Origin: an uncultured Cellvibrionales bacterium
Lineage (GTDB): Bacteria; Pseudomonadota; Gammaproteobacteria; Pseudomonadales; Dasaniaceae
Length of the DNA: 64,000 bases
NCBI GenBank assembly: GCA_913019905.1
Contig: CAJVZD010000016.1
Span: forward strand, 45,951-109,950
Direction: 5' to 3'
A program made the translations under genes and the position numbers. Of the stretch, positions 23,373-64,000 are shown piece by piece. The notes beneath the pieces were generated by a model. That model worked only from the letters and a program-made list of their open reading frames with translations. It was not told the DNA's origin and made no database searches. The first letter of the stretch is position 1. The number at the start of each line of letters is the position of its first letter.

Positions 23373-23780
23373 ATGGCAGTAACAGGACAATGCCTTTGTG
23401 GCGCAATCAAATATGAACTGGCGGCCGAACCTGCTATGACTGGGGTTTGTCATTGTAAGAATTGTCAGCGACAAGCGGGATCTGCTTTTTCCACCCTTGC
23501 CGGTGTGCCAAAGAGTGAGTTTTCACTTTTGTCAGGCGAGCCGAAACTGTACCAGGATAGCGATACGAATAGTGGAAATACCGTGGAGCGGTATTTTTGC
23601 GGTAATTGTGGATCGCCAATTTACTCTGCTATACCGAGTCAACCCGACACGCTATATCTCAAAACCGGCACGATGGATGATACGAGTGCATTCGCACCTC
23701 AGTTTCATGTTTGGTGTGATACAAAGCAGGGTTGGGTCATTCTTGATGACGCAGTCCCGCAAATTGCCAAGCAGTCTTAA
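23373..23780 (+). CDS. GFA family (glutathione-dependent formaldehyde-activating enzyme-like) zinc protein
   Basis: A 135-residue protein with the full set of family zinc ligands: CLC at 7-9, CHCKNC at 26-31 and CGNC at 76-79. The prototype was proposed to condense formaldehyde and glutathione, but most GFA-family proteins are uncharacterised and the original activity is disputed. The ATG at 23373 follows a GGAG sequence; the frame extends 57 bases upstream without resemblance. A glutathione-synthetase-like gene lies about 580 bases downstream on the same strand, with repeats in between. Confidence 0.9.
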   Translation: MAVTGQCLCGAIKYELAAEPAMTGVCHCKNCQRQAGSAFSTLAGVPKSEFSLLSGEPKLYQDSDTNSGNTVERYFCGNCGSPIYSAIPSQPDTLYLKTGTMDDTSAFAPQFHVWCDTKQGWVILDDAVPQIAKQS

Positions 23781-23900
23781 ATAATCGACCACGTTGGTGG
23801 GTAACTGAGATGACGGATTGGGTTCTTGTTTAAAGGCCTGGTCTAAAGGACTTGACCTCAAAGCCCCGACCTTTCGTGCCAAAACGCTGAGCTAGCTAGT

Positions 23901-24090
23901 GCCCATCCAGAAATGGAAAAACATCGTCGTTGCGAGCGTTAGCGCTGCAATCTCATTCAGCATTGGCGCGGGCTGCGGGAGATTGCCACGCTTCGCTCGC
24001 AATGACAGCATAAAAAAACTCGTCGATGCGTCGAGCTATAACGCTAGCAATGCCATCGTTGGAAAACATCTCGTGCTGGATAGGCGCTAG
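23901..24090. repeat. Intergenic palindromic repeat element, copy B
   Basis: Imperfect inverted repeat: TCGTTGCGAGCG...TGCAATCTC (about 23928-23955) pairs with GGAGATTGCCACG...CTCGCAATGACA (about 23978-24008). It is preceded by CCATCCAGAAAT and followed by CGTCGATGCGTCGAG and CGCTAG, the same order of words as copy A at 85-262. An open frame of 63 codons across it (23899-24090) is a by-product of the repeat and not a gene. Confidence 0.6.
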
Positions 24091-24207
24091 CAAGTCTCAG
24101 CATGTGATGATGTCGACAGTTGGGTTTATTCTATATTTCCATAATACTAGAATAATAGTTGTTAAGGGTAAGAGTTTACGCTATGCTTTTGTTTAAACGG
24201 CAGCTTA

Positions 24208-24273
24208 GGTCTGGGTCTGGGTCTGGGTCTGGGTCTGGGTCTGGGTCTGGGTTTAGGTGTAGGTGTAGGTCTG
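24208..24273. repeat. Hexamer tandem array (GGTCTG)
   Basis: Seven exact GGTCTG units (24208-24249), then GGTTTA, two GGTGTA and one more GGTCTG, eleven in-register hexamers in all. It lies 82 bases upstream of the glutathione-synthetase-like gene, in the promoter region, so slippage there could change expression. The gap 23781-24355 otherwise contains only copy B of the palindromic element. Confidence 0.92.
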
Positions 24274-24355
24274 CGGTCATTTCGAGGATGGGTTTTTCGA
24301 TTTGAGTTAAGAGCCTAAGGTTATGAACTTAATACCAAACAGAGAGGTAGTGTAG

Positions 24356-25348
24356 ATGGGTGCGTTTTTAGATAATCATTGTTCCTTTCTTTTTTTAATG
24401 GATCCTTATTCGAGTCTAAATTTGGAAACCGAAACTTCTTTACTCATTATGCAAGAGCTTAAAGACCGAGGTCATGCCGTATTTTGGGCAGAGGCAAACG
24501 CATTATATCTTCGCCAGGAGGATCCACGAGCATCAGTGCAGTATGTTGAGTCGGCGGAACCTGTTCGACTGGGAAAAAAGTGTGATCGTTCATTAAATGG
24601 ATTTGACTCGGTACTTGTCAGGTTCGACCCACCGTTCGATGTAAATTATCTCCACTGTACCTACATTTTAGACCACTTGGCACCGTCGGTAACCCAGTTT
24701 AACCCGGTGTCGGCGCTCCGTAATTTTAATGAAAAACTACTCGCAATGCGGTGGCCGGAATTTACCCCGCCAACGGTCGTGGCAATGGATCAGGAGTTAA
24801 TTAGAGATTTTGCAAAAGAACATCAAACTATCGTCATTAAGCCCCTCGACGATTGTTCCGGCAGAGGTATTGTGAAATTATCCTATGAGGAAATTCTGAG
24901 TGATGATCAGCTTTTGTCCCGAATTTTAGTGGGTCAGAATGGAGGGCCTCGGTATTTAGCCGCGCAGAAATATTTACCTGCGGTATCAAAAGGAGATAAG
25001 CGAATATTTCTGGTTGACGGAGATATCGTTGGGTATGTAAACCGCATACCAAAAAAAGGTGAATTCTTAGCAAATATTCATCAGGGCGCGCGGTGTGAAA
25101 AAACTGAAGTATCTGACAGGGAAAATCTGATTTTGGAAAAAATACGTCCATTTATTATCGAAAACGGATTGTTTCTACTGGGCGTGGATTTTATTGATGG
25201 GTTTGTCACGGAAATCAATCTGACAAGTCCGTCCGCTGTTAGGCAGATAAATCAACATATGGGGGCAAAAATTCAAAAGAAAATCGTCGACAGTATGTTA
25301 TCAAAAATGTCGCCTTCCTGCTGCTGTCGGGGCACTAAAGCGGCTTAG
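24356..25348 (+). CDS. Glutathione-synthetase-like ATP-grasp enzyme (GshB family, divergent)
   Basis: A 330-residue ATP-grasp ligase aligned by eye with bacterial GshB: FLMDPYSSLN at the start, VRFDPPFDVNYL (RKDPPFD in E. coli), the TYILDHL segment, IVIKPLDDCSGRGIVKL (ATP lysine and glycine loop), YLPAVSKGDKRIFLVDG and EINLTSPSAVRQIN (metal-binding end). The glycine-rich loop that closes over the active site in E. coli (GGRGE) is changed to an ANIHQGAR form, and the C-terminus ends in a short cysteine-rich tail (CCC). It may be a paralogue with a changed peptide substrate. Start supported by GAGAGG upstream. Flanked on both sides by tandem repeats. Confidence 0.82.
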   Translation: MGAFLDNHCSFLFLMDPYSSLNLETETSLLIMQELKDRGHAVFWAEANALYLRQEDPRASVQYVESAEPVRLGKKCDRSLNGFDSVLVRFDPPFDVNYLHCTYILDHLAPSVTQFNPVSALRNFNEKLLAMRWPEFTPPTVVAMDQELIRDFAKEHQTIVIKPLDDCSGRGIVKLSYEEILSDDQLLSRILVGQNGGPRYLAAQKYLPAVSKGDKRIFLVDGDIVGYVNRIPKKGEFLANIHQGARCEKTEVSDRENLILEKIRPFIIENGLFLLGVDFIDGFVTEINLTSPSAVRQINQHMGAKIQKKIVDSMLSKMSPSCCCRGTKAA

Positions 25349-25425
25349 AGATAGGATCTCTCGCTGAACGGGAACGTATTATTAAACGATTCCAAATGGT
25401 AATTGCGGCCTGATATTTTTAGGCT

Positions 25426-25473
25426 CCTTAGTTCCTTAGTTCCTTAGTTCCTTAGTTCCTTAGTTCCTTAGTT
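25426..25473. repeat. Tandem repeat, period 8 (CCTTAGTT)
   Basis: Six exact CCTTAGTT units in the convergent gap between the ATP-grasp gene and the MATE gene, followed by a variant CCTAGGGAGTTAGG. It ends 28 bases before the MATE stop codon. Confidence 0.92.
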
Positions 25474-25500
25474 CCTAGGGAGTTAGGTGCTAGGTTCTGT

Positions 25501-26886
25501 TCAAATCCGTAATCTTCGCGATATACCCGACGCAACTTGCCGTGTAATCCAAATCCAGCTGACGATACCCATTATTGTCGTCGTTAACGCTCCGGCAATA
25601 AATATTCCAACATAGCCCCACAGGTAATCTCCGAGCAGGGCGAGCGGAATATTAATAATCACCATTTGAGATATCGAAATGAGGAGTGGTGGCATAGGTT
25701 TCCCGAGCGCATTAAAGCTTGCGGTGGAGATAGCAATAAGACCCATAAATCCGATGGAGAGCGGTAGGATGCGTAAATACATCGTTGCCGCTTCTAATAC
25801 GCCGGGATCATCGTTTATTAGTGAAATAAGTAGTTCTGCAAAGAGTAAGAAAAAGCAGTAGGCGAACACGCCCCATAAGATGGCGAATCGATTTGATAAT
25901 TTCAGCGCATGTGTCACGCGGTCAAATAGCCCGGCTCCCCAGTTCTGACCGATGAAGGGTGCGGCACTCATAGATAGAGCAAAAACCACCATCATTATCA
26001 TTGACTCAATACGGGCGCCGACACCAAACCCGGCTATCACGACTGTGCCATGGCTGGCGAGAATTTTTGTAATCACAGCCATTGAAATGGGTACTATCAT
26101 GTTGCTGGCGATGGCTGGTAAACCGACGTGAAGGATGTTGTAGCAAGACTGTTTAAATTCTTTCATATTCAAATCGAAAAATTGATCTCTCACAATAATG
26201 ACGTACGCATACATAAGAAAGCTGACACAGCGTGCCACCACAAACCCTGCCGCCGCACCGGCTAAACCCAGCTTGGGAGCGCCCATTAAGCCAAATATAA
26301 AAATGGGTGAAATGATAACGTGCAAGATCGACCCGATAGTCATCAAAAGCCCCGGCGTCTTGGGGTCTCCCATAGCCCGCATTAATGTAGAGCCAACCAT
26401 TGCAACCGTAAAAAAAGGTAAACCGCATAGCCATATTTTCATGTACTCGACGGCTAAGGGATGAACGAGATCATCAGCTCCAACCAGTGAAAAATAACTA
26501 TCAACGAAATTATAAGCTATGCCGGCCAGAAGAATGATTAGGCTAACGACCAGTAAGAAACAATGGGTAATTAACGTTTTTGCTTTATCTTTATTCCCCT
26601 GGCCCATTGTTCTAGCCACCACAGACGATGCCCCAATGCCGAGGCCCATGGATATTCCCTGAAATAACATAATCATAGGAAAAGAAAAGCTGATTGCTGC
26701 GAGTTCATTGGTGCCCACGTTGCCGATATAAACCGTTTCTATTAAGTTGGCACCCATCACTGAAACGAGGCCCATGATCATAAAGCCGGTTAAGCGAATG
26801 AGGTGTGTGTGGACTGGTCCTTGAGTAAAGTCTTTACCGGGGTTTTGCTTTTTTTCAGGCGGGGCGAGGTTATTTGATTCGGTCAA
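25501..26886 (-). CDS. MATE family multidrug/metabolite efflux transporter
   Basis: A 461-residue protein with twelve hydrophobic segments in two similar halves, including the N-terminal family pattern GLVSVMGANLIETVYIG and a repeated equivalent around residue 240 (GLPAIASNMIVPISM). MATE proteins export cationic drugs or metabolites using sodium or proton gradients; in a sodium-using organism with oadGAB, a sodium-coupled mechanism is plausible but not shown. The frame begins with TTG at 26886, seven bases after an AAGG sequence; no better ATG exists before the first helix. Convergent with the ATP-grasp gene. Confidence 0.92.
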   Translation of the reverse strand: MTESNNLAPPEKKQNPGKDFTQGPVHTHLIRLTGFMIMGLVSVMGANLIETVYIGNVGTNELAAISFSFPMIMLFQGISMGLGIGASSVVARTMGQGNKDKAKTLITHCFLLVVSLIILLAGIAYNFVDSYFSLVGADDLVHPLAVEYMKIWLCGLPFFTVAMVGSTLMRAMGDPKTPGLLMTIGSILHVIISPIFIFGLMGAPKLGLAGAAAGFVVARCVSFLMYAYVIIVRDQFFDLNMKEFKQSCYNILHVGLPAIASNMIVPISMAVITKILASHGTVVIAGFGVGARIESMIMMVVFALSMSAAPFIGQNWGAGLFDRVTHALKLSNRFAILWGVFAYCFFLLFAELLISLINDDPGVLEAATMYLRILPLSIGFMGLIAISTASFNALGKPMPPLLISISQMVIINIPLALLGDYLWGYVGIFIAGALTTTIMGIVSWIWITRQVASGISRRLRI

Positions 26887-27025
26887 AATAAGGCCTTGTG
26901 AAAATGTATCTCAGGTAAGCGAGGCGTTGGGCTGTCTCGCGGGAGTCTAATTTAAATGCTACGTACTACAAAAAGCACCAGTTTCATCTAGCTCATTCAA
27001 GTACGTGGTGATTCATTATTCATGG

Positions 27026-27045
27026 CCGATCCGATCCGATCCGAG
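27026..27045. repeat. Short tandem repeat, period 5 (CCGAT)
   Basis: Three CCGAT units and one CCGAG just beyond the dusC stop codon. Small, but another of the window's intergenic tandem arrays. Confidence 0.7.
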
Positions 27046-27050
27046 CCAAA

Positions 27051-28043
27051 TTAGACGGCGATCGGTAGAGGAGATTCATCGTCTTTATTGAGGCTGAGTT
27101 GGTGTTGACCGATCGCAGCTGAGATATCGTCGGGCATCTTTAGTCTCTTTACGGACTCAAAGAGTGTCTCTGCCTGTCCGTATTGCCGACGTAAATACCC
27201 TAACCACTGTTTCACTCTATTGCCAACGTACTTGTGGTCGTATTCATGTGCTGTAACCGAACAAAATTGATCTAAAAGTCGAACAATGCTAGGCCATTCG
27301 AGGATCGGTTTACCTGTTTGCTGATGGACCGATTTGATTTGGCGGGCTAAATCGGGGCAGGATAATATTCCTCGTCCCAGCATAATATCCTGGCAGTTAC
27401 TTTGCACAACACAATTATGATAATCCTGAGTGCTCCATATCTCTCCGTTTGCAATGATAGGGATTGGACTTTTTTCAGTAACGGCAGCGATTGCATCCCA
27501 GTATGCGGGTGGTTTATATCCATCCTCCTTGGTTCGTGCATGAATGGTGAGTTCGTTTGCACTGGCGGCAAAAATGGCTGCACAGATATCATCGAGCAGG
27601 CTTCTATCGTTGAAGCCAAGTCTGATTTTGACGGTAACCGGTGTTGTTTTTGGTACCGCGTCACGCACTGCCTTAACAATATCAAATACCCGTCGAGGCT
27701 CTTTCAATAAAACCGATCCGCCATCGTTGCGATTAACCAGTTTAGCCGGACAGCCAAAGTTGATATCAATACCGGCAGCGCCCAATTCAGCTGCTCGCAA
27801 TGCATTCATTGCCATTGGCTCAGGAATGCCTCCCAATAATTGAATGTAGACAGGAGTGCCGCTTGGAGTGAGGCTGCCGTTGTGTAATTCGGGGCAATAT
27901 CGATAAAATACTTTTGCTGGAAGACGATGATTCGTTATCCGCACAAATTCAGTGACGCAGCGATCGAGTCCGCCCACCTCGCTTAACATGGAGCGCATGG
28001 TATGGTCGACGACGCCTTCCATTGGGGCGAGCATGATTCTCAT
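27051..28043 (-). CDS. tRNA-dihydrouridine(16) synthase DusC
   Basis: A 330-residue flavoprotein of the Dus family. The start MRIMLAPMEGVVDHTMR and CVTEFVRI match the DusC branch rather than DusA or DusB; INFGCPAKLVNRNDGGSVLL contains the catalytic Cys98. It reduces uridine 16 of tRNA to dihydrouridine with NADPH. C-terminal recruitment domain from about residue 245 (KYVGNRVKQWLGYLRRQYG). Divergent from the oad operon. Stand-alone gene. Confidence 0.93.
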   Translation of the reverse strand: MRIMLAPMEGVVDHTMRSMLSEVGGLDRCVTEFVRITNHRLPAKVFYRYCPELHNGSLTPSGTPVYIQLLGGIPEPMAMNALRAAELGAAGIDINFGCPAKLVNRNDGGSVLLKEPRRVFDIVKAVRDAVPKTTPVTVKIRLGFNDRSLLDDICAAIFAASANELTIHARTKEDGYKPPAYWDAIAAVTEKSPIPIIANGEIWSTQDYHNCVVQSNCQDIMLGRGILSCPDLARQIKSVHQQTGKPILEWPSIVRLLDQFCSVTAHEYDHKYVGNRVKQWLGYLRRQYGQAETLFESVKRLKMPDDISAAIGQHQLSLNKDDESPLPIAV

Positions 28044-28426
28044 TGTTAATTTGGATCTCTGTTTGTTGTCGGTGGGTATTATACGGATAGTTTGAAATTT
28101 CGCTAAGATTCATTTACCGATAATCACTGCTGGAAAAAGCGGTTTAGTTTAATATCGACGGTTTTTTGTTGGGTAATCTACATCAGCATTAGCTAAACTC
28201 AATTTCTTGCCTATAAGTTTTTGATATTTAAAGAATTATAGTGGTTTCAATTGATATTTTTTCAGGTGAAGCTTATTGCCTAAACAGCTGATTACCTGTA
28301 CATTGTCAACTTTTTTGCGCCTATGACTGGGCGTTTATATTATAGCCTTTTGTTTTAGGATATTAAGTGTCGCGATGTTGGCATAAAATTTCGCTAAAAC
28401 AGCTTGTCAGAGTCGGGAGCTAACCA
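28044..28426. other. Intergenic region between divergent dusC and oadG
   Basis: No gene seen. It contains the predicted oad promoter (28315-28343) and AT-rich DNA. Confidence 0.4.
28315..28343 (+). promoter_or_regulatory. Predicted sigma-70 promoter for oadGAB
   Basis: TTGCGC at 28315-28320 and TATTAT at 28338-28343 are separated by 17 bases, about 85 bases upstream of the oadG start. Weak match to consensus at -35, prediction only. Confidence 0.35.
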
Positions 28427-28669
28427 GTGCAGCCATCGCTTATGCAGCAAGGTGTCGAATTAATGCTATTTGGCATGGGCACAGTATTTGTATTTCTAGC
28501 ATTGCTAATTGCAGCCACCACTGCCATGTCTGCAGTATTGCAGCGGTACACGAAACCCGAACAGCTTGTTCCCCAGCAAGCGCCAAATAAGACGGCTGTG
28601 GTTGAAGATGATCAGTTAATTGCGGTGATTAGTGCGGCTATTCATAAATATCGATCGCGACGGAAATAA
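28427..28669 (+). CDS. Oxaloacetate decarboxylase gamma subunit
   Basis: An 80-residue membrane protein with one N-terminal helix (about residues 10-35, LMLFGMGTVFVFLALLIAATTAM) and a short polar C-terminal part, the usual build of OadG. It anchors and helps assemble the alpha and beta subunits and carries a zinc-binding C-terminus in characterised pumps; the terminal segment here is HKYRSRRK. The GTG at 28427 has GGGAG seven bases ahead and is preferred to the ATG five codons later. First gene of oadGAB. Confidence 0.88.
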   Translation: MQPSLMQQGVELMLFGMGTVFVFLALLIAATTAMSAVLQRYTKPEQLVPQQAPNKTAVVEDDQLIAVISAAIHKYRSRRK

Positions 28670-28741
28670 TAAAGTATTTAGCGATTTTTCGATTAATGGC
28701 CTGTGCCCGTCGACAGAATACTTCGTTCAGGAAAAGACAGT

Positions 28742-30532
28742 ATGACCACAAAAAAACCTTTAGGTATTACGGATGTTGTTCTTAGAGATGCTCATCAATC
28801 TTTGTTTGCAACGCGGATGCGTTTGGATGACATGTTACCCATTGCCGAAAAACTTGACCAGATTGGTTTTTGGTCATTGGAATCGTGGGGTGGAGCCACC
28901 TTTGACGCCTGTATTCGTTATTTGGGAGAAGATCCCTGGGAGCGTATTCGCGAATTAAAAAAAGCGATGCCTAATACTCCGCAACAGATGTTATTTCGCG
29001 GTCAAAATATTTTGGGGTATCGTCATTATGCCGATGACGTTGTCGAGCGATTTGTAGAGCGGGCAGCGATTAACGGCGTTGACGTTTTTCGGGTTTTTGA
29101 TGCGATGAACGACCCGCGCAATTTGGAAACGGCAATTAAAGCCGTGCGCAAAGTCGGCAAACATGCTCAGGGGACGATTTCATATACCCTGAGTCCGGTC
29201 CACAACTTAGATATGTGGGTCGAGTTATCGAAAAACATTGAATCGATGGGTGCCGATTCGATTGCAATAAAGGATATGGCCGGTTTGTTGAAACCCTACG
29301 TGGCCTTTGAATTAGTCAGTCGCTTGAAAAAAGAGCTATCTATTCCTATTCATATGCAGTGTCATGCGACGACAGGTATGTCGACGGCGACGGCTTTGAA
29401 GGCGGTCGAGGCAGGTATCGATAATATCGATACCTCGATTTCGTCTATGAGCATGACTTATGGCCACTCTCCGACTGAATCTGTTGTTGCCATGCTCGAA
29501 GGAACAGAGCGAGATACCGGGCTTGATATCGTGAAGCTGGAAGAAATTGCGGGGTACTTTCGAGAGGTCAGGAAAAAATACGCGCGCTTCGAGGGTTCAC
29601 TGCGCGGTGTTGATTCTCGGATTTTAGTAGCGCAAGTTCCTGGCGGTATGCTAACCAATATGGAAAGCCAATTGAAAGATCAGGGTGCCTCTGACAAATT
29701 GGATGAGGTTCTCGCAGAGATTCCCCGTGTTCGTGAAGATCTAGGGTTTATTCCGTTGGTCACCCCTACCTCGCAAATTGTTGGCACGCAGGCCGTGATG
29801 AACGTGATGTTTGGCGAGCGATATAGATCAATATCAAAAGAAACCGCTGGGGTTTTGGCAGGTAAATATGGCGTAACTCCGGCACCGGTGAATCAGGAGC
29901 TGCAAGCTCGTGTTCTCGACGGCGCAGCGCCGATAACGTGTCGGCCAGCGGATTTACTGGATGCCGAAGTAGATCAGTTGACTTCAGACTTGCAATCCGT
30001 AGCCACCGATAAAGGTATAAAGCTAGCTGCGGGTGAGAATGAGATTGACGATGTGCTTACTTACGCGTTGTTCCCCGAAATAGGTTTGAAGTTTCTCGAA
30101 AATCGCGGAGACCCTTCAGCTTTCGAGCCGGTGCCTACCGCTTCAGCTGCCGAGCCTGCCACCGCTGCGCCGAAGTCTGCTGCTGTGAAAGGCGAGCCAG
30201 AGGTCTACACCGTATCCGTCAAAGGTCAAAGTTATGTGGTGCAAGTGTCTGAAGGTGGAGACATAAACGCGGTGACAGCAGTGACCGGTTTATCCGTGCC
30301 CACTGCAGCAAAAGTCGATGGCGAGCCTGTAACTGCGCCGTTGTCCGGTAACATATTCAAAGTAAACGTCGGCGTTGGCGAGCACGTTCAGCAAGGGGAT
30401 GTGATCATCATTCTTGAAGCGATGAAGATGGAAACCGAAGTGCGTGCAAGCCATTCCGGATCCGTTGTGTCAGTCAGTGTTAAGGAGGGCGACTCTGTTT
30501 CTGTGGGCGATATATTATTAACCATTGTCTAG
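28742..30532 (+). CDS. Oxaloacetate decarboxylase alpha subunit (biotin carrier)
   Basis: A 596-residue protein with the carboxyltransferase TIM barrel ([18 protein letters not shown] at the start, with the metal-binding aspartate), a conserved carboxylase domain, an Ala/Pro-rich linker around 470-490 and a C-terminal biotinyl domain with the EAMKM motif; biotin would be attached to Lys562. It transfers CO2 from oxaloacetate to biotin for decarboxylation by the beta subunit. The ATG at 28742 follows AGGAAAAG; the GTG upstream at 28703 has no support. Between oadG and oadB. Confidence 0.95.
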
Positions 30533-30553
30533 CTGGAAGTAGAGGATAATATA

Positions 30554-31858
30554 ATGGATAAACTGCTCTTGCTGTGGGCCGACTCTGGTATTTACCAAAT
30601 GGGTCTTGGGCAGCTGGTTATGATACTCATTGGTATCGGGCTTTTATATTTGGCCATTAATCGCGGATTCGAGCCTTTATTGCTCGTTCCCATCGGTTTC
30701 GGCGGAATTCTTGCCAACATACCCGGTGCTGGCATGGCTTTTTCGTCTGTCGAAAATGCTATAACCTTAGGTGGCCCCGACGTTTTGAACGCGCTTGCCG
30801 AAAGCCTGAAGTTGAGTGCCTGGGAAAGTGGAAAGGATATTTATCATGCTTATGAAACAGCCGGTGCGCAGGCCCATCTGCTCGCCCAGCAGACTGCTGC
30901 AGATCATGGGTTTTCGAATGGAATGTTATACAATTTTTACACTGTCGCTATTGCGAGCGGGGCGGCCCCGTTAGTTATTTTTATGGGAGTCGGTGCAATG
31001 ACCGACTTCGGGCCGCTATTGGCTAATCCCAAAACATTGTTTCTCGGCGCTGCCGCTCAATTTGGAATCTTCGCTACCATTTTAGGTGCTGTTGGTTTAA
31101 CGAGCATAGGCATAATGGATTTTAGTCTAGCCGACGCTGCCGCTATTGGGATTATTGGCGGCGCAGACGGGCCTACCGCTATTTACGTATCCAGTATTTT
31201 GGCTCCGGATTTATTGGGAGCCATCGCGGTTGCGGCCTATTCCTACATGGCGTTAGTCCCTCTGATTCAGCCACCCATTATGATGGCTCTAACCACTGAA
31301 GAAGAACGAAAAATTGAAATGGTACAGCTGCGGCACGTTTCCAAGGTTGAGAAAATATTCTTTCCAATGGTATTACTCATTCTGGTCGCGTTGATCTTAC
31401 CGTCTGCGGCACCGTTACTCGGTATGTTTTGTTTTGGAAATTTGATGAAAGAATGTGGAGTCGTCGATCGATTGAGTGATACGGCCCAGAATGCGCTGAT
31501 TAATATCACAACGATATTCCTCGGTTTGTCAGTCGGGTCCAAATTAAGCGCCGACAAGTTTCTCGATTTAAACACATTAGGCATTTTATTATTGGGGGTT
31601 GTAGCTTTCGGTATAGGTACAGCCTGTGGTTTACTAATGGCAAAACTGATGAATAAACTGTCTAGCACGCCGATTAACCCATTAATTGGCTCAGCCGGCG
31701 TTTCCGCTGTGCCAATGGCAGCTAGAGTATCGAATAAAGTGGGTCTCGACGCCAATCCGCACAATTTTTTGTTAATGCATGCGATGGGACCCAACGTTGC
31801 GGGTGTTATCGGCTCGGCGGTGGCGGCTGGAGTGATGATTAGTCTTGTTGGTGGTTAA
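30554..31858 (+). CDS. Oxaloacetate decarboxylase beta subunit (sodium pump)
   Basis: A 434-residue integral membrane protein with about nine to eleven hydrophobic helices. The conserved [13 protein letters not shown] motif contains the essential sodium-binding aspartate, and [17 protein letters not shown] near the C-terminus is also hallmark. Known role: it decarboxylates carboxybiotin on the alpha subunit and exports sodium ions, turning oxaloacetate-to-pyruvate conversion into a sodium motive force. GAGG ribosome binding site. Last gene of the operon. Confidence 0.95.
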
Positions 31859-31861
31859 TAC

Positions 31862-32071
31862 CTAATGTTTGTCGCTTATTTGTACAGTCTCTTCTCTGTG
31901 TAAGAAAAAAGTTGTAGCGTAAAAATCATCGGATACATTGTCAAAGCGCCGCCGTTGCTTGCATAGTCGTCGCTTGCGGTGGTTAAGATTTAGCCGTGGG
32001 TTTTTCCTCAGCTCCATGCCCTCTCGCCGTTCCTTTCTTTTGCGTCTGTCGATAAAAAAGTGGTTTTTCAT
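31862..32071 (-). CDS. Small Arg/Lys-rich hypothetical protein
   Basis: A 69-residue frame with 21 arginines or lysines, clustered in two blocks (DRRKRKERRE near the start and NHRKRRLCKQRRRFD in the middle), ending in a DDFYA segment. This patterned layout resembles the small conserved basic proteins seen in marine gammaproteobacteria, but I cannot name a family and there is no clear Shine-Dalgarno sequence before its ATG. It might bind nucleic acid or acidic phospholipids. It is convergent with oadB (three bases apart) and divergent from gspC. Confidence 0.4.
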   Translation of the reverse strand: MKNHFFIDRRKRKERREGMELRKNPRLNLNHRKRRLCKQRRRFDNVSDDFYATTFFLHREETVQISDKH

Positions 32072-32288
32072 AGCGTTGATGTTTATTCATAGTCATCAGT
32101 CAATTTGAGCGTTTTTGTGTGCGCTGCTGATATCTGATTTGTTACGGGTAGGAACTAGTCTAGTTCAGAAATGTCTTATTGCCAGTATTCCCGTATGTTG
32201 ACCCGACAAGAATTAGGGTTCCTTTAGTTCTAAAGTCCTAATATACTGCGGTTGTGGAAAGTGTGTGCTAGCAGTAGGAGATCAATAA

Positions 32289-33284
32289 GTGTCGAGTTTG
32301 GCTGGCCGTTGGCGAACGTCAGGGAAAAGGGTTACCGATCGGTTTAGTGCATTGCCTGTGAAGGTTATCCATAATACTTTTTGCGTTGTCTTGGTTTTTT
32401 GGTTGCTTTTTTCCCTCATTCAAATTGTTTTGACGTTCATGACTAATCCTTTGGTGGATGAAAATCTGAATGCGGTAAGTAGCACGGATAAGAATAAAGG
32501 TTCTGCTACACATAAAACAGCTTCCGTTGATATCCTGCAGTTACAATCCCTGGATCTATTTGGTGCAGATAGCCTTAAAACGGAAGGTGCTGATGTTGTA
32601 CCAGTGCAGGACGTTATCGATCTGGACGCGACGAAAACTCGCCTGAATGTTGCGCTGGAGGGAATTGTATTAAACTCAAGACAAGATGAATCCTTAGCGA
32701 TAATTGTATATCAGGGTAAGCAAGATCAGTATTATGTTGGCGAAAAGTTGCCCATCAACGGCAGTGTTAGTTTAGAGCGAGTACTGGAAGATCACGTCAT
32801 TTTGAATAATTCCGGGAGTTATGAATCTCTGTGGTTATACGACGAAGAAAATAAGACTAGCTCTGCATCTCATCGTGGTGAGAAAAAATCAAGCCCAAAG
32901 ATTATCCCTCGGCGCACCACCGAGAAGGCAACAGTCGTTCGACCAGATCGGAAAGCAACATCGCTAGCAAAGGATTACCGAAAACGCTTATATAATAATC
33001 CGCGATCATTGGCTGAAGCAATACGCATATCGCCGAGTCAGAAAGGTGGTCAGCTGGTTGGTTATAAAGTGAGCCCCGGCAAAGACCGTCAGCAATTTAC
33101 CGACTTGGGTTTTATGCCGAACGACGTGGTGACCAGTATTAACGGTATTACCCTTGATGAACCTTCGAAAGCTTTAGAGATCTATAAATTGATGCGTTCA
33201 GCCAAGGAAGCCAATTTTACCGTTGATAGAAATGGCGAAACGTTGGAGATTGCCGTGTCGTTGGACGACAATACTAACAGCTGA
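32289..33284 (+). CDS. Type II secretion system protein GspC
   Basis: A 331-residue inner-membrane T2SS protein: short cytosolic part, one membrane helix (about 28-52), HR domain in the periplasm (about 95-190) and a C-terminal PDZ domain (about 245-325, with GFMPNDVVTSINGITLDEPSKA). GspC links the inner-membrane platform to the secretin and helps select substrates. GTG start with TAGGAG nine bases upstream. First gene of the gspC-N operon. Confidence 0.93.
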   Translation: MSSLAGRWRTSGKRVTDRFSALPVKVIHNTFCVVLVFWLLFSLIQIVLTFMTNPLVDENLNAVSSTDKNKGSATHKTASVDILQLQSLDLFGADSLKTEGADVVPVQDVIDLDATKTRLNVALEGIVLNSRQDESLAIIVYQGKQDQYYVGEKLPINGSVSLERVLEDHVILNNSGSYESLWLYDEENKTSSASHRGEKKSSPKIIPRRTTEKATVVRPDRKATSLAKDYRKRLYNNPRSLAEAIRISPSQKGGQLVGYKVSPGKDRQQFTDLGFMPNDVVTSINGITLDEPSKALEIYKLMRSAKEANFTVDRNGETLEIAVSLDDNTNS

Positions 33285-33363
33285 CCGACAGTGTTTTTAA
33301 TAAATCGCTTTGCAGGTTTTATATTCTTTGCCATTCATTATTTTCCAACTGAGTACATTTTTC

Positions 33364-35493
33364 ATGAATTGTTTGTTTCACAAGCGGCTTTTTACTTGGG
33401 TATCAACTCGTGCACTTACAGCTTATTTTGATCTGGCTAAGCTACCAAGACCCGTTGCTTCTAAGCTGATTGTCTCGGTGTTATCTGCTGTCGTCATACT
33501 ATCTTCGACAGAGGTTTTCGCACAATCAATAAGTCAAAAATCAGAAAAACAGCAATCAAACCCCGATCAAACCTGGACAGTGAATTTTAAGGAAACCGAC
33601 ATTCAGGAACTCATTCGTTTTGTGGCTAATGCTTTAGGCAAAACAATGATTATAGACTCAAAGGTAAAAGGAACCGTGCAGGTGATTTCGTCGAAACCTG
33701 TGAATCGCGAAGAGTTATACGAGCTATTTCTCTCGATTTTGGAAGTGCAGGGCTTCGCTGCTGTTAACTCCGGCGACATTATTCGAATTATTCCCAACAA
33801 AGGCGCCCGGTCTGCACCCGTGCAGGTGGCAAATAAAAATCGTATTTCCCTCAGTAGTGAAGTAGTAACGCAGGTTATACAGCTTAACAACATTTCCGCT
33901 GCGAAGTTAATTCCGCTGATTAGGCCGTTGGCGCCACAGCATGCTCATGTAGCCGCTTACGCACCAAGTAACGCAATTATTATTTCTGATACATCCGCCA
34001 ATATTGCTCGTATTCGAAAAGTTATTGAAAGCATCGACTTGTCGGCGGTCGAAGAGACCGATATTGTAACTCTGGAACATGCATCATCCGAAGAAGTGGT
34101 GCGGATGTTAAAGGAGTTGCAGCAAAGCCAAAAGAAGAAAGGACAGGCTGAAACGGGACAGTTGCTGCTGGTTGCGGACAAAAGAACCAACAGTGTGCTT
34201 GTTAGCGGCGACGAGTTGGAGCGCGCAAGAGTGAAGAGTCTACTGGCTTTTCTGGATACAGCCTTGGTTCAAAGCGGTAATGTGAAAGTCGTTTATCTTG
34301 AATATGCTCTAGCGAAAGACCTTGCCGCAGTGCTGAGCAAAGTTGTGCAAAACATGGTCGGAATGACGGGCCCTCGAACTCCCGGCAAAACCAAATCCAA
34401 GGGCCTTGCGAGCATAGAAGCCGATGAGGGAACAAATTCTCTGATTATTACTGCAGAAGCTGACGTCATGCAGTCTTTGTTATCGGTAGTTAAGCGATTA
34501 GATATTCGGCGCGCGCAGGTATTGGTGGAAGCTATCATAGTGGAAATTACAGATACCGACGACCGGGACTTGGGGATTGAGTGGTTATTTACAAACGACA
34601 GTGGCGCTTATGGATCATCTACGCGCGCAGGTTTAGCGGGAGCCACGGCAGCGGCAGCTTTCGAGTCGGATGACTCGACTGAATCCACAGCCAGTATCGC
34701 TTCCGCATTGGCGGGTATACCCGGACAGGTATTGGGTTTTGGTCATGTAAAAGATGGCTTGAGTTTGAATTTGGTTATCAACGCTCTGAAGAAAAATACC
34801 AAGGCGAATATATTATCAACACCTTCTTTGATGACGCTGGACAATGAAGAGGCTTCCATTGTCGTTGGTGAAAGTATTCCCTTTGTGACCGGTTCGTATA
34901 CGTCGACGGGAAGTTCTTCCTCTAATCCCGATAACCCGTTTCAAACAGTAGAGCGAGAAAATGTGGGGATTACGTTAAAGGTGACTCCACAAATTAATGA
35001 AGGGGACTCTCTGATATTGGCTATTTCTCAAGAAGTATCAAATGTCAAAGGGACCGCTGCGCTCAACAGTAATTTGATTACTAGTGAGCGGAAAATTGAT
35101 ACCAAAGTTCTTGCTGATAATGGCCAGACCATTGTGCTGGGCGGCTTGATTGAAGACAATGTGACTGAGGAGGTTCAAAAAGTGCCTTTGCTGGGTGACT
35201 TGCCGGTCATCGGTGCGATGTTTCGAAGTACCGCCGTTAATGTCGGTAAAAAACATTTACTGGTTTTCCTGAAAGCGACTATTGTCCGGGATAATCGTGA
35301 AATGGATGAAGCGACAGCGGGGAAATATAGATTAATCAGAAAAGAGCAACAAAGAGAAATCGATGAAGGTGTTAATCTCATTGAAGACCGCTCCTTGCCT
35401 TTACTACCCGAGTGGGAAGAGCAGCGGGAGATACTGATAAATATGAAACGAGCTGATGAAAGCCTGCAAGTCGAATCTGATTCGGGACAATAA
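33364..35493 (+). CDS. Type II secretion system secretin GspD
   Basis: A protein of about 709 residues. A long basic N-terminus leads into a signal-peptide-like hydrophobic stretch ending VFAQ; then N0-N3 domains and the C-terminal secretin domain (NILSTPSLMTLDNEEA, GESIPFVTG, VPLLGDLPVIGAMFRS). It forms the outer-membrane channel. The ATG at 33364 was preferred over a TTG at 33310, though the distance from start to hydrophobic core is longer than in an ideal signal peptide. It is followed two bases later by gspE. A pilotin gene (gspS-like) was not seen. Confidence 0.93.
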   Translation: MNCLFHKRLFTWVSTRALTAYFDLAKLPRPVASKLIVSVLSAVVILSSTEVFAQSISQKSEKQQSNPDQTWTVNFKETDIQELIRFVANALGKTMIIDSKVKGTVQVISSKPVNREELYELFLSILEVQGFAAVNSGDIIRIIPNKGARSAPVQVANKNRISLSSEVVTQVIQLNNISAAKLIPLIRPLAPQHAHVAAYAPSNAIIISDTSANIARIRKVIESIDLSAVEETDIVTLEHASSEEVVRMLKELQQSQKKKGQAETGQLLLVADKRTNSVLVSGDELERARVKSLLAFLDTALVQSGNVKVVYLEYALAKDLAAVLSKVVQNMVGMTGPRTPGKTKSKGLASIEADEGTNSLIITAEADVMQSLLSVVKRLDIRRAQVLVEAIIVEITDTDDRDLGIEWLFTNDSGAYGSSTRAGLAGATAAAAFESDDSTESTASIASALAGIPGQVLGFGHVKDGLSLNLVINALKKNTKANILSTPSLMTLDNEEASIVVGESIPFVTGSYTSTGSSSSNPDNPFQTVERENVGITLKVTPQINEGDSLILAISQEVSNVKGTAALNSNLITSERKIDTKVLADNGQTIVLGGLIEDNVTEEVQKVPLLGDLPVIGAMFRSTAVNVGKKHLLVFLKATIVRDNREMDEATAGKYRLIRKEQQREIDEGVNLIEDRSLPLLPEWEEQREILINMKRADESLQVESDSGQ

Positions 35494-35495
35494 CG

Positions 35496-37049
35496 ATGTC
35501 CGACGTTGATATAGAAACCAGTGAAAGTCTAAATACTTTGGAATCCGAAGCGACTGTGTCATTCAAACGGTCACCGGAAGAAGAGCTTTTTGTTTTGCCT
35601 TTTACTTTTGCTCAGAATCATGGAGTTCTTCTGGACTGGAGAGAAGATGGCCTGGTCGTTTTGTACCGTAGTGGATTAACATTAGCGGTATTGTCAGAGC
35701 TGCAACGCGGCCTAATGAGGTCGTTCGGTACAGAAGAGCTTAGCAATGCGGATTTCCAGCGGCAGTTGACTCGTACCTATCAAAAAGATAATCGGGAGGC
35801 CATCCAAGTAGCCGAGGATATGGGGGACGATATCGACTTGTCACGGCTTGCCGATGAAATCCCAGACACGGCTGACTTGATGGACGCGGAAGGCGACGCA
35901 CCTGTTATCCGTTTGATCAATGCCCTATTGTCTCAGGCCGTCCGAGAACAGGCCTCAGATATTCATATCGAGACCTTTGAAGAAAAGCTGACTGTGCGCT
36001 TTCGTGTCGATGGCGTATTGACCGAAGTTCTATCACCAAAGCGGATGTTGGCACCGTTACTCGTTTCTCGATTGAAGGTGATGGCCAAGCTGGATATAGC
36101 TGAAAAACGGGTACCACAGGATGGCCGAATTTCGATTCGGCTCGCAGGTCACGCGGTTGATCTTCGGGTTTCAACCATTCCCTCTACCCACGGTGAGCGC
36201 GTAGTACTTCGATTGTTAGACAAGCAAGCGGGGCAATTGGAATTATCTCAGTTAAATATGAGTGTTGACGTCGATGCGTCTTATAAGAAAGCGCTACATA
36301 CGCCGCATGGTATTATTTTGGTGACGGGTCCCACAGGGTCCGGTAAAACAACGACTCTGTATGCCGGTCTGACCCACATTAATGACAGTAGCCGTAATAT
36401 TTTGACGATTGAGGATCCCGTGGAATATCTTTTACCCGGCATCGGTCAAACTCAGGTTAACTCAAAAGTTGATATGACTTTTGCGAGAGGTCTGCGCGCC
36501 ATCTTGCGTCAGGATCCTGATGTGGTGATGGTCGGAGAAATTCGAGATACAGAGACCGCAGAAATTGCAGTTCAGGCCAGTTTAACCGGGCATTTGGTGT
36601 TATCAACGCTGCACACCAATACGGCTATCGGTGCTATCACTCGTCTTCAGGATATGGGTGTTGAACCCTTCCTGCTTTCTTCCAGTATTATAGCAGTGAT
36701 GGCACAGAGACTTGTGCGGGTTTTATGCGCGCGGTGTAAGGAGATTCACACAGCATCGTCGTCAGAATTATCCGCGCTCGGCATTTTTGATACAGCAGAA
36801 AAAGTTTCCATTTTTCGGGCCAAGGGCTGCGTTTACTGTAATGGCAGTGGCTACCGAGGTCGAACGGGTATTTATGAACTGATCGTCGTTGACGATCAGT
36901 TACGCGCCTTAATTCACGGTGGAGCGGGTGAACAGGAAATGGTCGTTCAGGCCCGCAAAAAGTCGACTGGTATTCTTGATAGTGGCCGAGATCGTATTCT
37001 GGCCGGCGAAACGACCGTAGAGGAAGTATTGCGAGTGACAACAGCGTGA
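35496..37049 (+). CDS. Type II secretion system ATPase GspE
   Basis: A 517-residue cytosolic hexameric ATPase. N1E domain, then the Walker A motif GPTGSGKTTT near residues 277-286, Asp boxes, Walker B-like DPDVVMVGEIRD, and the four-cysteine zinc element CARC...CVYC before RTGIYEL. It drives assembly of the pseudopilus. Starts at ATG two bases after gspD. An 85-base gap separates it from gspF. Confidence 0.95.
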   Translation: MSDVDIETSESLNTLESEATVSFKRSPEEELFVLPFTFAQNHGVLLDWREDGLVVLYRSGLTLAVLSELQRGLMRSFGTEELSNADFQRQLTRTYQKDNREAIQVAEDMGDDIDLSRLADEIPDTADLMDAEGDAPVIRLINALLSQAVREQASDIHIETFEEKLTVRFRVDGVLTEVLSPKRMLAPLLVSRLKVMAKLDIAEKRVPQDGRISIRLAGHAVDLRVSTIPSTHGERVVLRLLDKQAGQLELSQLNMSVDVDASYKKALHTPHGIILVTGPTGSGKTTTLYAGLTHINDSSRNILTIEDPVEYLLPGIGQTQVNSKVDMTFARGLRAILRQDPDVVMVGEIRDTETAEIAVQASLTGHLVLSTLHTNTAIGAITRLQDMGVEPFLLSSSIIAVMAQRLVRVLCARCKEIHTASSSELSALGIFDTAEKVSIFRAKGCVYCNGSGYRGRTGIYELIVVDDQLRALIHGGAGEQEMVVQARKKSTGILDSGRDRILAGETTVEEVLRVTTA

Positions 37050-62485: not shown

Positions 62486-62842
62486 ATGTTAGAGCCAAGC
62501 AATAATGACGAGCTACCCGTAATACCGGGTAAACGATATTTTACTATCGGTGAAGTCAGTGAACTGTGTGCTGTAAAACCTCATGTATTGCGCTATTGGG
62601 AACAGGAGTTTCCAAATCTGAAGCCTGTAAAGCGCCGCGGCAATCGCCGTTACTACCAGCGTGAAGACGTTATCCTCATTCGCCAGATTCGCAGTTTATT
62701 GTACGACCAGGGTTATACTATCGGTGGCGCCCGACAGAGAATGACTGGAGATGATTCAAATGACAGTAACAATCTATATGGCGAAATGATTCGCCAAATG
62801 ATTGAAGAGCTAGAAGACGTCTTAAAGGTTTTGCCCGCGTAA
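62486..62842 (+). CDS. MerR family transcriptional regulator
   Basis: A 118-residue protein with a MerR HTH (KRYFTIGEVSELCAVKPHVLRYWEQEFP) and a short helical tail; it lacks a large ligand domain. The same small MerR protein lies between ihfA and tRNA-Pro in Pseudomonas. Target unknown. Confidence 0.92.
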   Translation: MLEPSNNDELPVIPGKRYFTIGEVSELCAVKPHVLRYWEQEFPNLKPVKRRGNRRYYQREDVILIRQIRSLLYDQGYTIGGARQRMTGDDSNDSNNLYGEMIRQMIEELEDVLKVLPA

Positions 62843-62932: not shown

Positions 62933-63009
62933 CGGGGCGTAGCGCAGTCTGGTAGCGCACTACACTGGGGGTGTAGTGGTCGCAGGTTCAAATCCTGCCG
63001 TTCCGACCA
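62933..63009 (+). tRNA. tRNA-Pro (anticodon GGG)
   Basis: 77 bases including the encoded CCA. Acceptor CGGGGCG pairs with CGTTCCG (two G-U), D-arm GCGCAGTCTGGTAGCGC, anticodon stem CTACA/TGTAG around loop CTGGGGG, giving anticodon GGG, then GGTTCAAATCC T-arm. tRNA-Pro at the end of this block is conserved in relatives. Confidence 0.96.
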
Positions 63010-63058: not shown

Positions 63059-63093
63059 TTGTAAGCTGGGGTTCACAGGGGGCGTATAAGAAA

Positions 63094-63376: not shown

Positions 63377-64000
63377 TTAGCGAAATTTTTGTCCCAAAAT
63401 AGTGGAATTTAGAAACTGGGGCCCGGACAGGCCCCAAAGCGCTTGCAGCGTGTCTAACGGGCTCTTGATTTTCCTAGCGCCTTGTCTCAATACATGGGTA
63501 TAGATCATCGTTGTATTTAAGTCTTTATCCCCCATTAACTCCTGTATTGAGCGGACATCAGTACGGCTTTCCAGTAGGTGCGTTGCGAATGAATGCCTAA
63601 GCGTGTGACATGTTATTCGCTTAGTCAGTTCCAGGGAGCGAGCGGCTGTGCGTACGGTCTTTTGCAATGTCGATGTTGAGCAATGCCATCAGTAATAAAT
63701 TTGCTCACCACGCGGCTTATGTAATGATGCTGATGGAAACAAATATTGCCATTGGATGCTCGTCGGCGCGTTTTTGTATTTGCGATTGCGGGCGTCTGGC
63801 AGATACACATATCCGGCGCCGGAGTTGAGGTCCTTGACATGAAGCTGTTGACGTCACAGTAAATGCCGTTCAACGGGTTTGAGCAATCGTTCCGGTAACC
63901 CCACGACTCGTGCCTGGTAACCTTTAGTATTTCTGACCGTGATAGTGCCATGGTGTAAATCAATATCCTATACGCGCAATATAGAGCATTCATTGACACG
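63377..64000 (-). pseudogene. Decayed integron integrase (IntI), 5' end beyond window
   Basis: In one reading frame on the reverse strand the translation follows integron integrases for about 200 codons: DIDLHHGTITVRNTKG, then VKDLNSGAGYVYLPDARNRKY (the IntI-specific YLPDA..RKY segment), [15 protein letters not shown] and TTMIYTHV...SPLD. Three in-frame stops interrupt it: TAG at 63968-63970, TGA at 63854-63856 and TGA at 63689-63691. The second catalytic histidine (LLGH in relatives) is Asp in MGDKD. The catalytic Tyr in MIYTH remains. A 96-residue open C-terminal part (63377-63667) could be mistaken for a gene. It is truncated by the window end. Confidence 0.88.

Follow-up and report, generated by a model that had tools for sequence, protein, structure and literature searches.

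The DNA analysed here, a stretch of 64,000 bases referred to as the window, spans bases 45951-109950 of contig C16 in a draft assembly of 6.4 Mb (177 contigs, 99.4% complete, 5.1% contaminated). The final 624 bases of the contig, 63377-64000 of the window, carry on the minus strand the C-terminal part, 185 codons long, of a gene for an integron integrase (IntI), hereafter the relic. Window position 64000 is the last base of C16 (109,950 bases), and the gene is cut there by the assembly, its catalytic Arg codon (63998-64000) forming the start of the matched part. The contig end alone suffices as the reason for the missing N-terminal half. Neither that half nor any second piece of an intI of this type was found elsewhere in the 6.4-Mb genome, and none of the other contigs compared with the C16 end matched it. 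The features of this region are collected in Table 1.

Table 1 The relic integrase gene, its breaks and its neighbours (window coordinates)
Feature	Position	Strand	Basis or remark
MerR-like regulator gene	62486..62842	+	Conserved neighbour, used for finding the locus in relatives
tRNA-Pro (GGG)	62933..63009	+	Neighbour; adjacency to intI not conserved
22 codons and TAA past the gene's normal end	63377..63445	-	Clade members end earlier
Broken integron-integrase gene, C-terminal 185 codons	63446..64000	-	TIGR02249, PF00589, 2a3v; 84% to P0001
Asp codon at second catalytic His position	63527..63529	-	Alignment to 2a3v; His invariant in 48 clade members
In-frame TGA	63689..63691	-	Frame reading
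In-frame TGA	63854..63856	-	Frame reading
In-frame TAG	63968..63970	-	Frame reading

A preliminary description of this DNA had reported an IntI-specific frame with the YLPDA..RKY insert, three in-frame stops and a His-to-Asp change at one catalytic position, and all of these points were confirmed. The relic matches the integron-integrase profile TIGR02249 with 213 bits over positions 131-315; the match is truncated, which keeps the score below the 265 bits required of whole proteins. It also matches the tyrosine-recombinase catalytic domain PF00589 (89.9 bits, cut-off 27.1) and residues 135-319 of the Vibrio IntI structure 2a3v (E 4e-42), with the insert retained and aligned with that of 2a3v. 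Five of the six catalytic positions are kept relative to 2a3v (Arg, Lys, first His, second Arg and Tyr), and Asp replaces the second His. The frame holds 4 stops, its own end included, compared with 8 to 14 in the other five frames, and it overshoots the end of the aligned clade members by 22 codons, so the normal stop is missing. The open reading frame required of a functional integron integrase is accordingly absent, being interrupted three times and lacking its usual end. Since the gene lies on the minus strand, its 5' end, and hence the direction in which attI and any array would lie, points rightward, as had been proposed.

The relic, with X at the stops, was searched against 5.8 billion proteins, and the figures that follow refer to the best 120 of 7,984 matches. 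The comparison with intact IntI proteins that had been suggested returned as best match P0001, an intact protein of 311 aa with 84% identity, encoded on a 1,353-base contig. The 45 best matches are at least 58% identical to the relic, many of them 311 aa long, and beyond them identity falls gradually to about 50%. In the tree the relic pairs with P0001 with a support of 0.999, and from these comparisons it is assigned to a distinct IntI clade with intact members elsewhere. A search with P0001 of 390 genomes of the order gave three further clade members, one in the same genus (G004, contig C72, 61% identity to the relic over 169 positions) and the others in G354 (58%) and G371 (57%). The G371 integrase gene contains two in-frame stops (G371:C1, locus L318 9223-15155) and has six attC on its expected side according to the heuristic finder; the covariance model, with E of 1 or less, recovers five, of which three fall below 0.01. 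The clade of the relic thus includes a dead integrase that has kept its array. Among the matches listed in this search, 8 of 150 have in-frame stops, the relic counted and truncated genes not. Scans of genome contigs and viral contigs gave nothing above 52% identity to the relic among the best 80 of 574 confirmed loci and nothing above 51% among the best 80 of 289, respectively; among its best 80 loci the genome-contig scan named no host for the clade. A TIGR02249 search of family f35 (5 genomes) found no match anywhere, with the control likewise silent, which deprives this negative of weight as a sign of absence.

The branch leading to the relic is longer than that of its sister (0.137 vs 0.037 to P0001), and with five outgroups the relic shows 9 to 12 unique changes against 2 to 4 for P0001, the relative-rate test giving p values from 0.013 to 0.15, not all of them significant. 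The relic deviates in 3 of the 47 columns that are invariant among 48 clade members; in a leave-one-out count with a median of 0, P0027 likewise deviates in 3 of 50. Consequently, decay at the amino-acid level is mild. What really testifies to inactivation, probably a recent one, is the set of in-frame stops together with the loss of the normal stop and of the second His.

The relic was further described as part of a former chromosomal integron near a tRNA-Pro gene, a claim of which one half fared better than the other: a former integron is supported, and a conserved site at the tRNA gene is not. The merR gene was matched in all 17 relatives searched, and the likeness of the region to their loci ends at or before window position 63059, just past the tRNA-Pro terminator. 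Of 20 relative loci scanned, ten contain tRNA-Pro(GGG), and intI is found beside it in none of the ten, within a distance of 0.6 kb (G004) to 8.8 kb (G012) after the tRNA. The adjacency of the two genes here therefore looks incidental; the absence of intI in relatives is firm only near the tRNA-Pro gene. No attC stands out in the window between 60001 and 64000, the covariance model run with filters off giving a best E of 0.35. Next to the relic neither attI nor attC nor a cassette can be seen, so that it is unproven that an integron, beyond an intI fragment, once stood at this site. On another contig of the assembly, two tandem tRNA 3'-end fragments with terminators are present (C30, locus L025 2320-2578), the second of which (C30:19502-19577) copies the 3' end of the tRNA-Pro gene and its terminator with 91% identity; the tandem fragments look like scars of integrative elements. 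An island at the tRNA-Pro gene was considered and found no gene-order support when C30 reading frames of at least 90 codons were compared with the tRNA-Pro loci of 11 relatives, none of the frames giving a match.

Candidate attC sites were sought with two heuristic finders and a covariance model, R2, built on a hand-written structure. The first finder was too strict, returning one match across 19 loci and the window. The relaxed finder was calibrated on the loci of the genome-contig scan. At a score of at least 22, regions upstream of intI gave 49 matches on the expected strand vs 5 on the other in 267 kb, and regions downstream gave 4 and 5 in 554 kb; it also yields chance matches, 13 of them in the window at a score of at least 19. 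The whole-genome search, in which 150 of 640 candidates were scored, was not exhaustive and passed over one attC on C46, a site that R2 recovers once it is run on the locus itself.

Two other contigs of the assembly carry integron parts. On contig C10 the integrase gene (985-1980) is intact; its product of 331 aa scores 444 bits with TIGR02249 (cut-off 265), is 40% identical to the relic and belongs to another clade. An exact LexA-type box, CTGT-N8-ACAG, lies at 964-979 of this contig; three such exact boxes occur in 101 kb of other DNA. C10 has an attI region and begins inside an array, with one attC near the contig start at 184-273. As the covariance model gives this site an E of only 0.63 (heuristic score 21.4), the call is based on the heuristic score and on likeness to a C46 site. 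Contig C46, in which searches found no IntI match, carries at about 23515-36500 an attI region homologous to that of C10, with palindromes at 23515-23776, followed by a plus-strand cassette array. The covariance model places attC at 24997, 25769 and 30606 (E 0.00066 or better), a further attC at 28062 is 82% similar to the C10 site, and another at 28733 was called by the heuristic. Having at least two attC and lacking an intI in their vicinity, C46 qualifies as a CALIN. The array genes belong to the LtrA, DUF4386, AAA_33, acetyltransferase, isochorismatase and DUF2071 families, together with CcdAB and a pair that we read as HigBA-like, for which the Pfam match covers the HTH partner only. C10 and C16 might come from different organisms, a point that base composition and tetranucleotide comparison do not decide, since 5.1% of the assembly is contaminated and the contigs are unlinked. 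Another tyrosine recombinase gene is present at C54:27310-28023 (TIGR02249 97 bits over the N-terminal part), with one in-frame TAA inside its PF00589 match.

The attI regions of C10 and C46 share an 18-bp palindrome, GACGYAANNNNTTRCGTC, of which the 6.4-Mb genome contains six copies, all of them within these two regions; the reversed control pattern has zero occurrences in the same genome. Three copies are found in the C10 attI/intI region (664-926) and three at the C46 attI (23515-23776), with similar spacing. Among 390 genomes of the order, 8 have a stricter form of the palindrome, this genome (G000) being one of them. The spacing from palindrome to crossover was examined at eight loci with 14 palindromes (L338, L340, L343 and L344 among the palindrome loci). 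Six sites, distributed over the three genomes G000, G158 and G079, have the GTTA of the presumed crossover beginning 19 or 20 nt past the palindrome. Two more GTTA, 18 and 35 nt away, are probably chance occurrences, and the remaining palindromes are followed by no GTTA within 40 nt. The palindromes of G025 and G151 come in pairs, which adjoin intI or an N-terminal stub of it or stand alone on contig C57, and the 19-20 nt GTTA spacing was not seen in these two genomes. The stubs adjoined by palindrome pairs are about 50 codons long (G025:C171, L336 635-787; G151:C352, L337 922-1062). Arrays of attC stand beside palindrome-bearing attI-like sites on G158:C177 and G079:C25. No IntI match above 84 bits (cut-off 265) was obtained in G079 or G158, drafts of about 380 and 410 contigs; short IntI-like remnants occur on G158:C120 and G079:C35. 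A limited search of the integron literature, in the portions that were available, found no description of an attI palindrome of this kind.

In combination, the most probable reading, to which we assign a probability of roughly 0.8, is that 63377-64000 is the C-terminal part of an intI with three stops, cut by the contig end, and that it marks a second, decayed integron of the chromosome. The gene would have worked until fairly recently, given that most of its sequence still looks constrained, and would then have lost its function. Any product would now end before the catalytic Tyr or lack the catalytic Arg, and in either form recombination of DNA would be impossible for it. The attI and anything that remains of the array would lie to the right of position 64000. 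The integron may have arrived here once the lineage had separated from the genus-mates examined, or else each of them may have lost it.

That the gene belongs to a non-integron tyrosine recombinase such as XerC or XerD is so improbable as to be negligible. The XerD and XerC profiles do score on the last 96 residues, with 76 and 74 bits, but TIGR02249 outscores them with 108 bits on the same piece, quite apart from its 213 bits over the entire match. The relic also has the IntI insert, and among the matches listed those named by their source are integrases or integron integrases, one coordinate label aside. A best match to a non-integron recombinase would have spoken against the preliminary description and was not obtained, and by its profile scores the relic is classed as an integron integrase rather than another tyrosine recombinase. 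Assembly errors at a thin contig end, with an intact gene behind them, would be in keeping with a position in the last 624 bases of a contig in a 177-contig draft. Still, we consider this very improbable, for three stops, the missing stop and the change of an invariant residue would all have to be wrong within 624 bases that otherwise form one frame, and the branch of the relic is longer than that of its sister.

Another reading, in which a rearrangement or an island at tRNA-Pro delivered a lone piece of intI with no attI or array beside it, appears unlikely, though it draws on several observations: the 91% copy on C30 of the 3' end of tRNA-Pro with its terminator, the end of likeness to relatives just past the tRNA-Pro terminator, and the failure to find the N-terminal half elsewhere in the genome. 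Against this, the contig end already accounts for the missing half, the C30 frames do not match the tRNA-Pro loci of the 11 relatives, and the loci of the clade integrases of G004, G354 and G371 yielded no tRNA.

Under the preferred reading of a second, decayed integron, the earlier suggestion that its cassettes may be frozen is unproven. The intact C10 integrase, located behind a LexA box in the same assembly, is predicted to act on attC in trans; surviving cassettes would therefore not be strictly frozen, and strict freezing seems unlikely if C10 and C16 belong to one organism. The same assembly seems to hold three states, namely an intact integron (C10), an attI and array without integrase (C46) and a dead integrase (C16). 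Should these contigs belong to one organism, trans service of cassette arrays would become testable there. A more far-reaching proposal, tentative and in our view rather doubtful, is that of a split integron in which the LexA-boxed integrase of C10 serves in trans attI-bearing arrays without integrase, such as C46. The palindrome GACGYAANNNNTTRCGTC at its fixed 19-20 nt would then be an attI recognition element or an operator, and the dead intI of the window a platform whose integrase became dispensable. If confirmed, the palindrome would offer a means of recognising attI sites other than those of class 1, which are poorly described according to the accessible text of IntegronFinder 2.0 (PMC9024848).

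The relic is an ordinary integrase pseudogene that fits the known pattern of broken intI genes, and it adds one more case to a well-documented series. In the sections available of Nemergut et al. 2008 (PMC2426708), pseudogenes make up nearly a third of the intI genes, with only 4% in Vibrio, and more than a fifth of integron-bearing lineages have more than one intI; pseudogenes of one clade beside a functional intI of the expected clade are also described. The portion of Cambray 2011 at hand reports 43% of 1,135 homologs as apparently inactivated and links inactivation to lost LexA control. The relic resembles the pseudo-integrons of PMC2426708, as far as that text goes, in combining an intI with internal stops and an intact intI of another clade in the assembly, and differs in that only its C-terminal part is assembled, which leaves no attI or array to compare; the IntegronFinder 2.0 excerpt warns that drafts split integrons between contigs (PMC9024848). 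The alignment of the relic to 2a3v reaches from the catalytic Arg as far as the C-terminus and covers the insert, whereas 2a3v is intact and has His where the relic has Asp. C46 is similar to the CALINs outlined in the parts seen of PMC9024848 and PMC12444791, with several attC and no intI, but retains an attI region like that of C10, and the window itself shows no attC; CALINs are mobilisable in trans by a functional IntI, as stated in the latter's available text. In Xanthomonas, the same partial source links intI inactivation to stable arrays (PMC12444791), and its repeated inactivation with arrays left behind is like the pattern of the relic. The Xanthomonas intI, however, is described there at one conserved locus (ilvD), in contrast to the relic, the site of which is not conserved in relatives.
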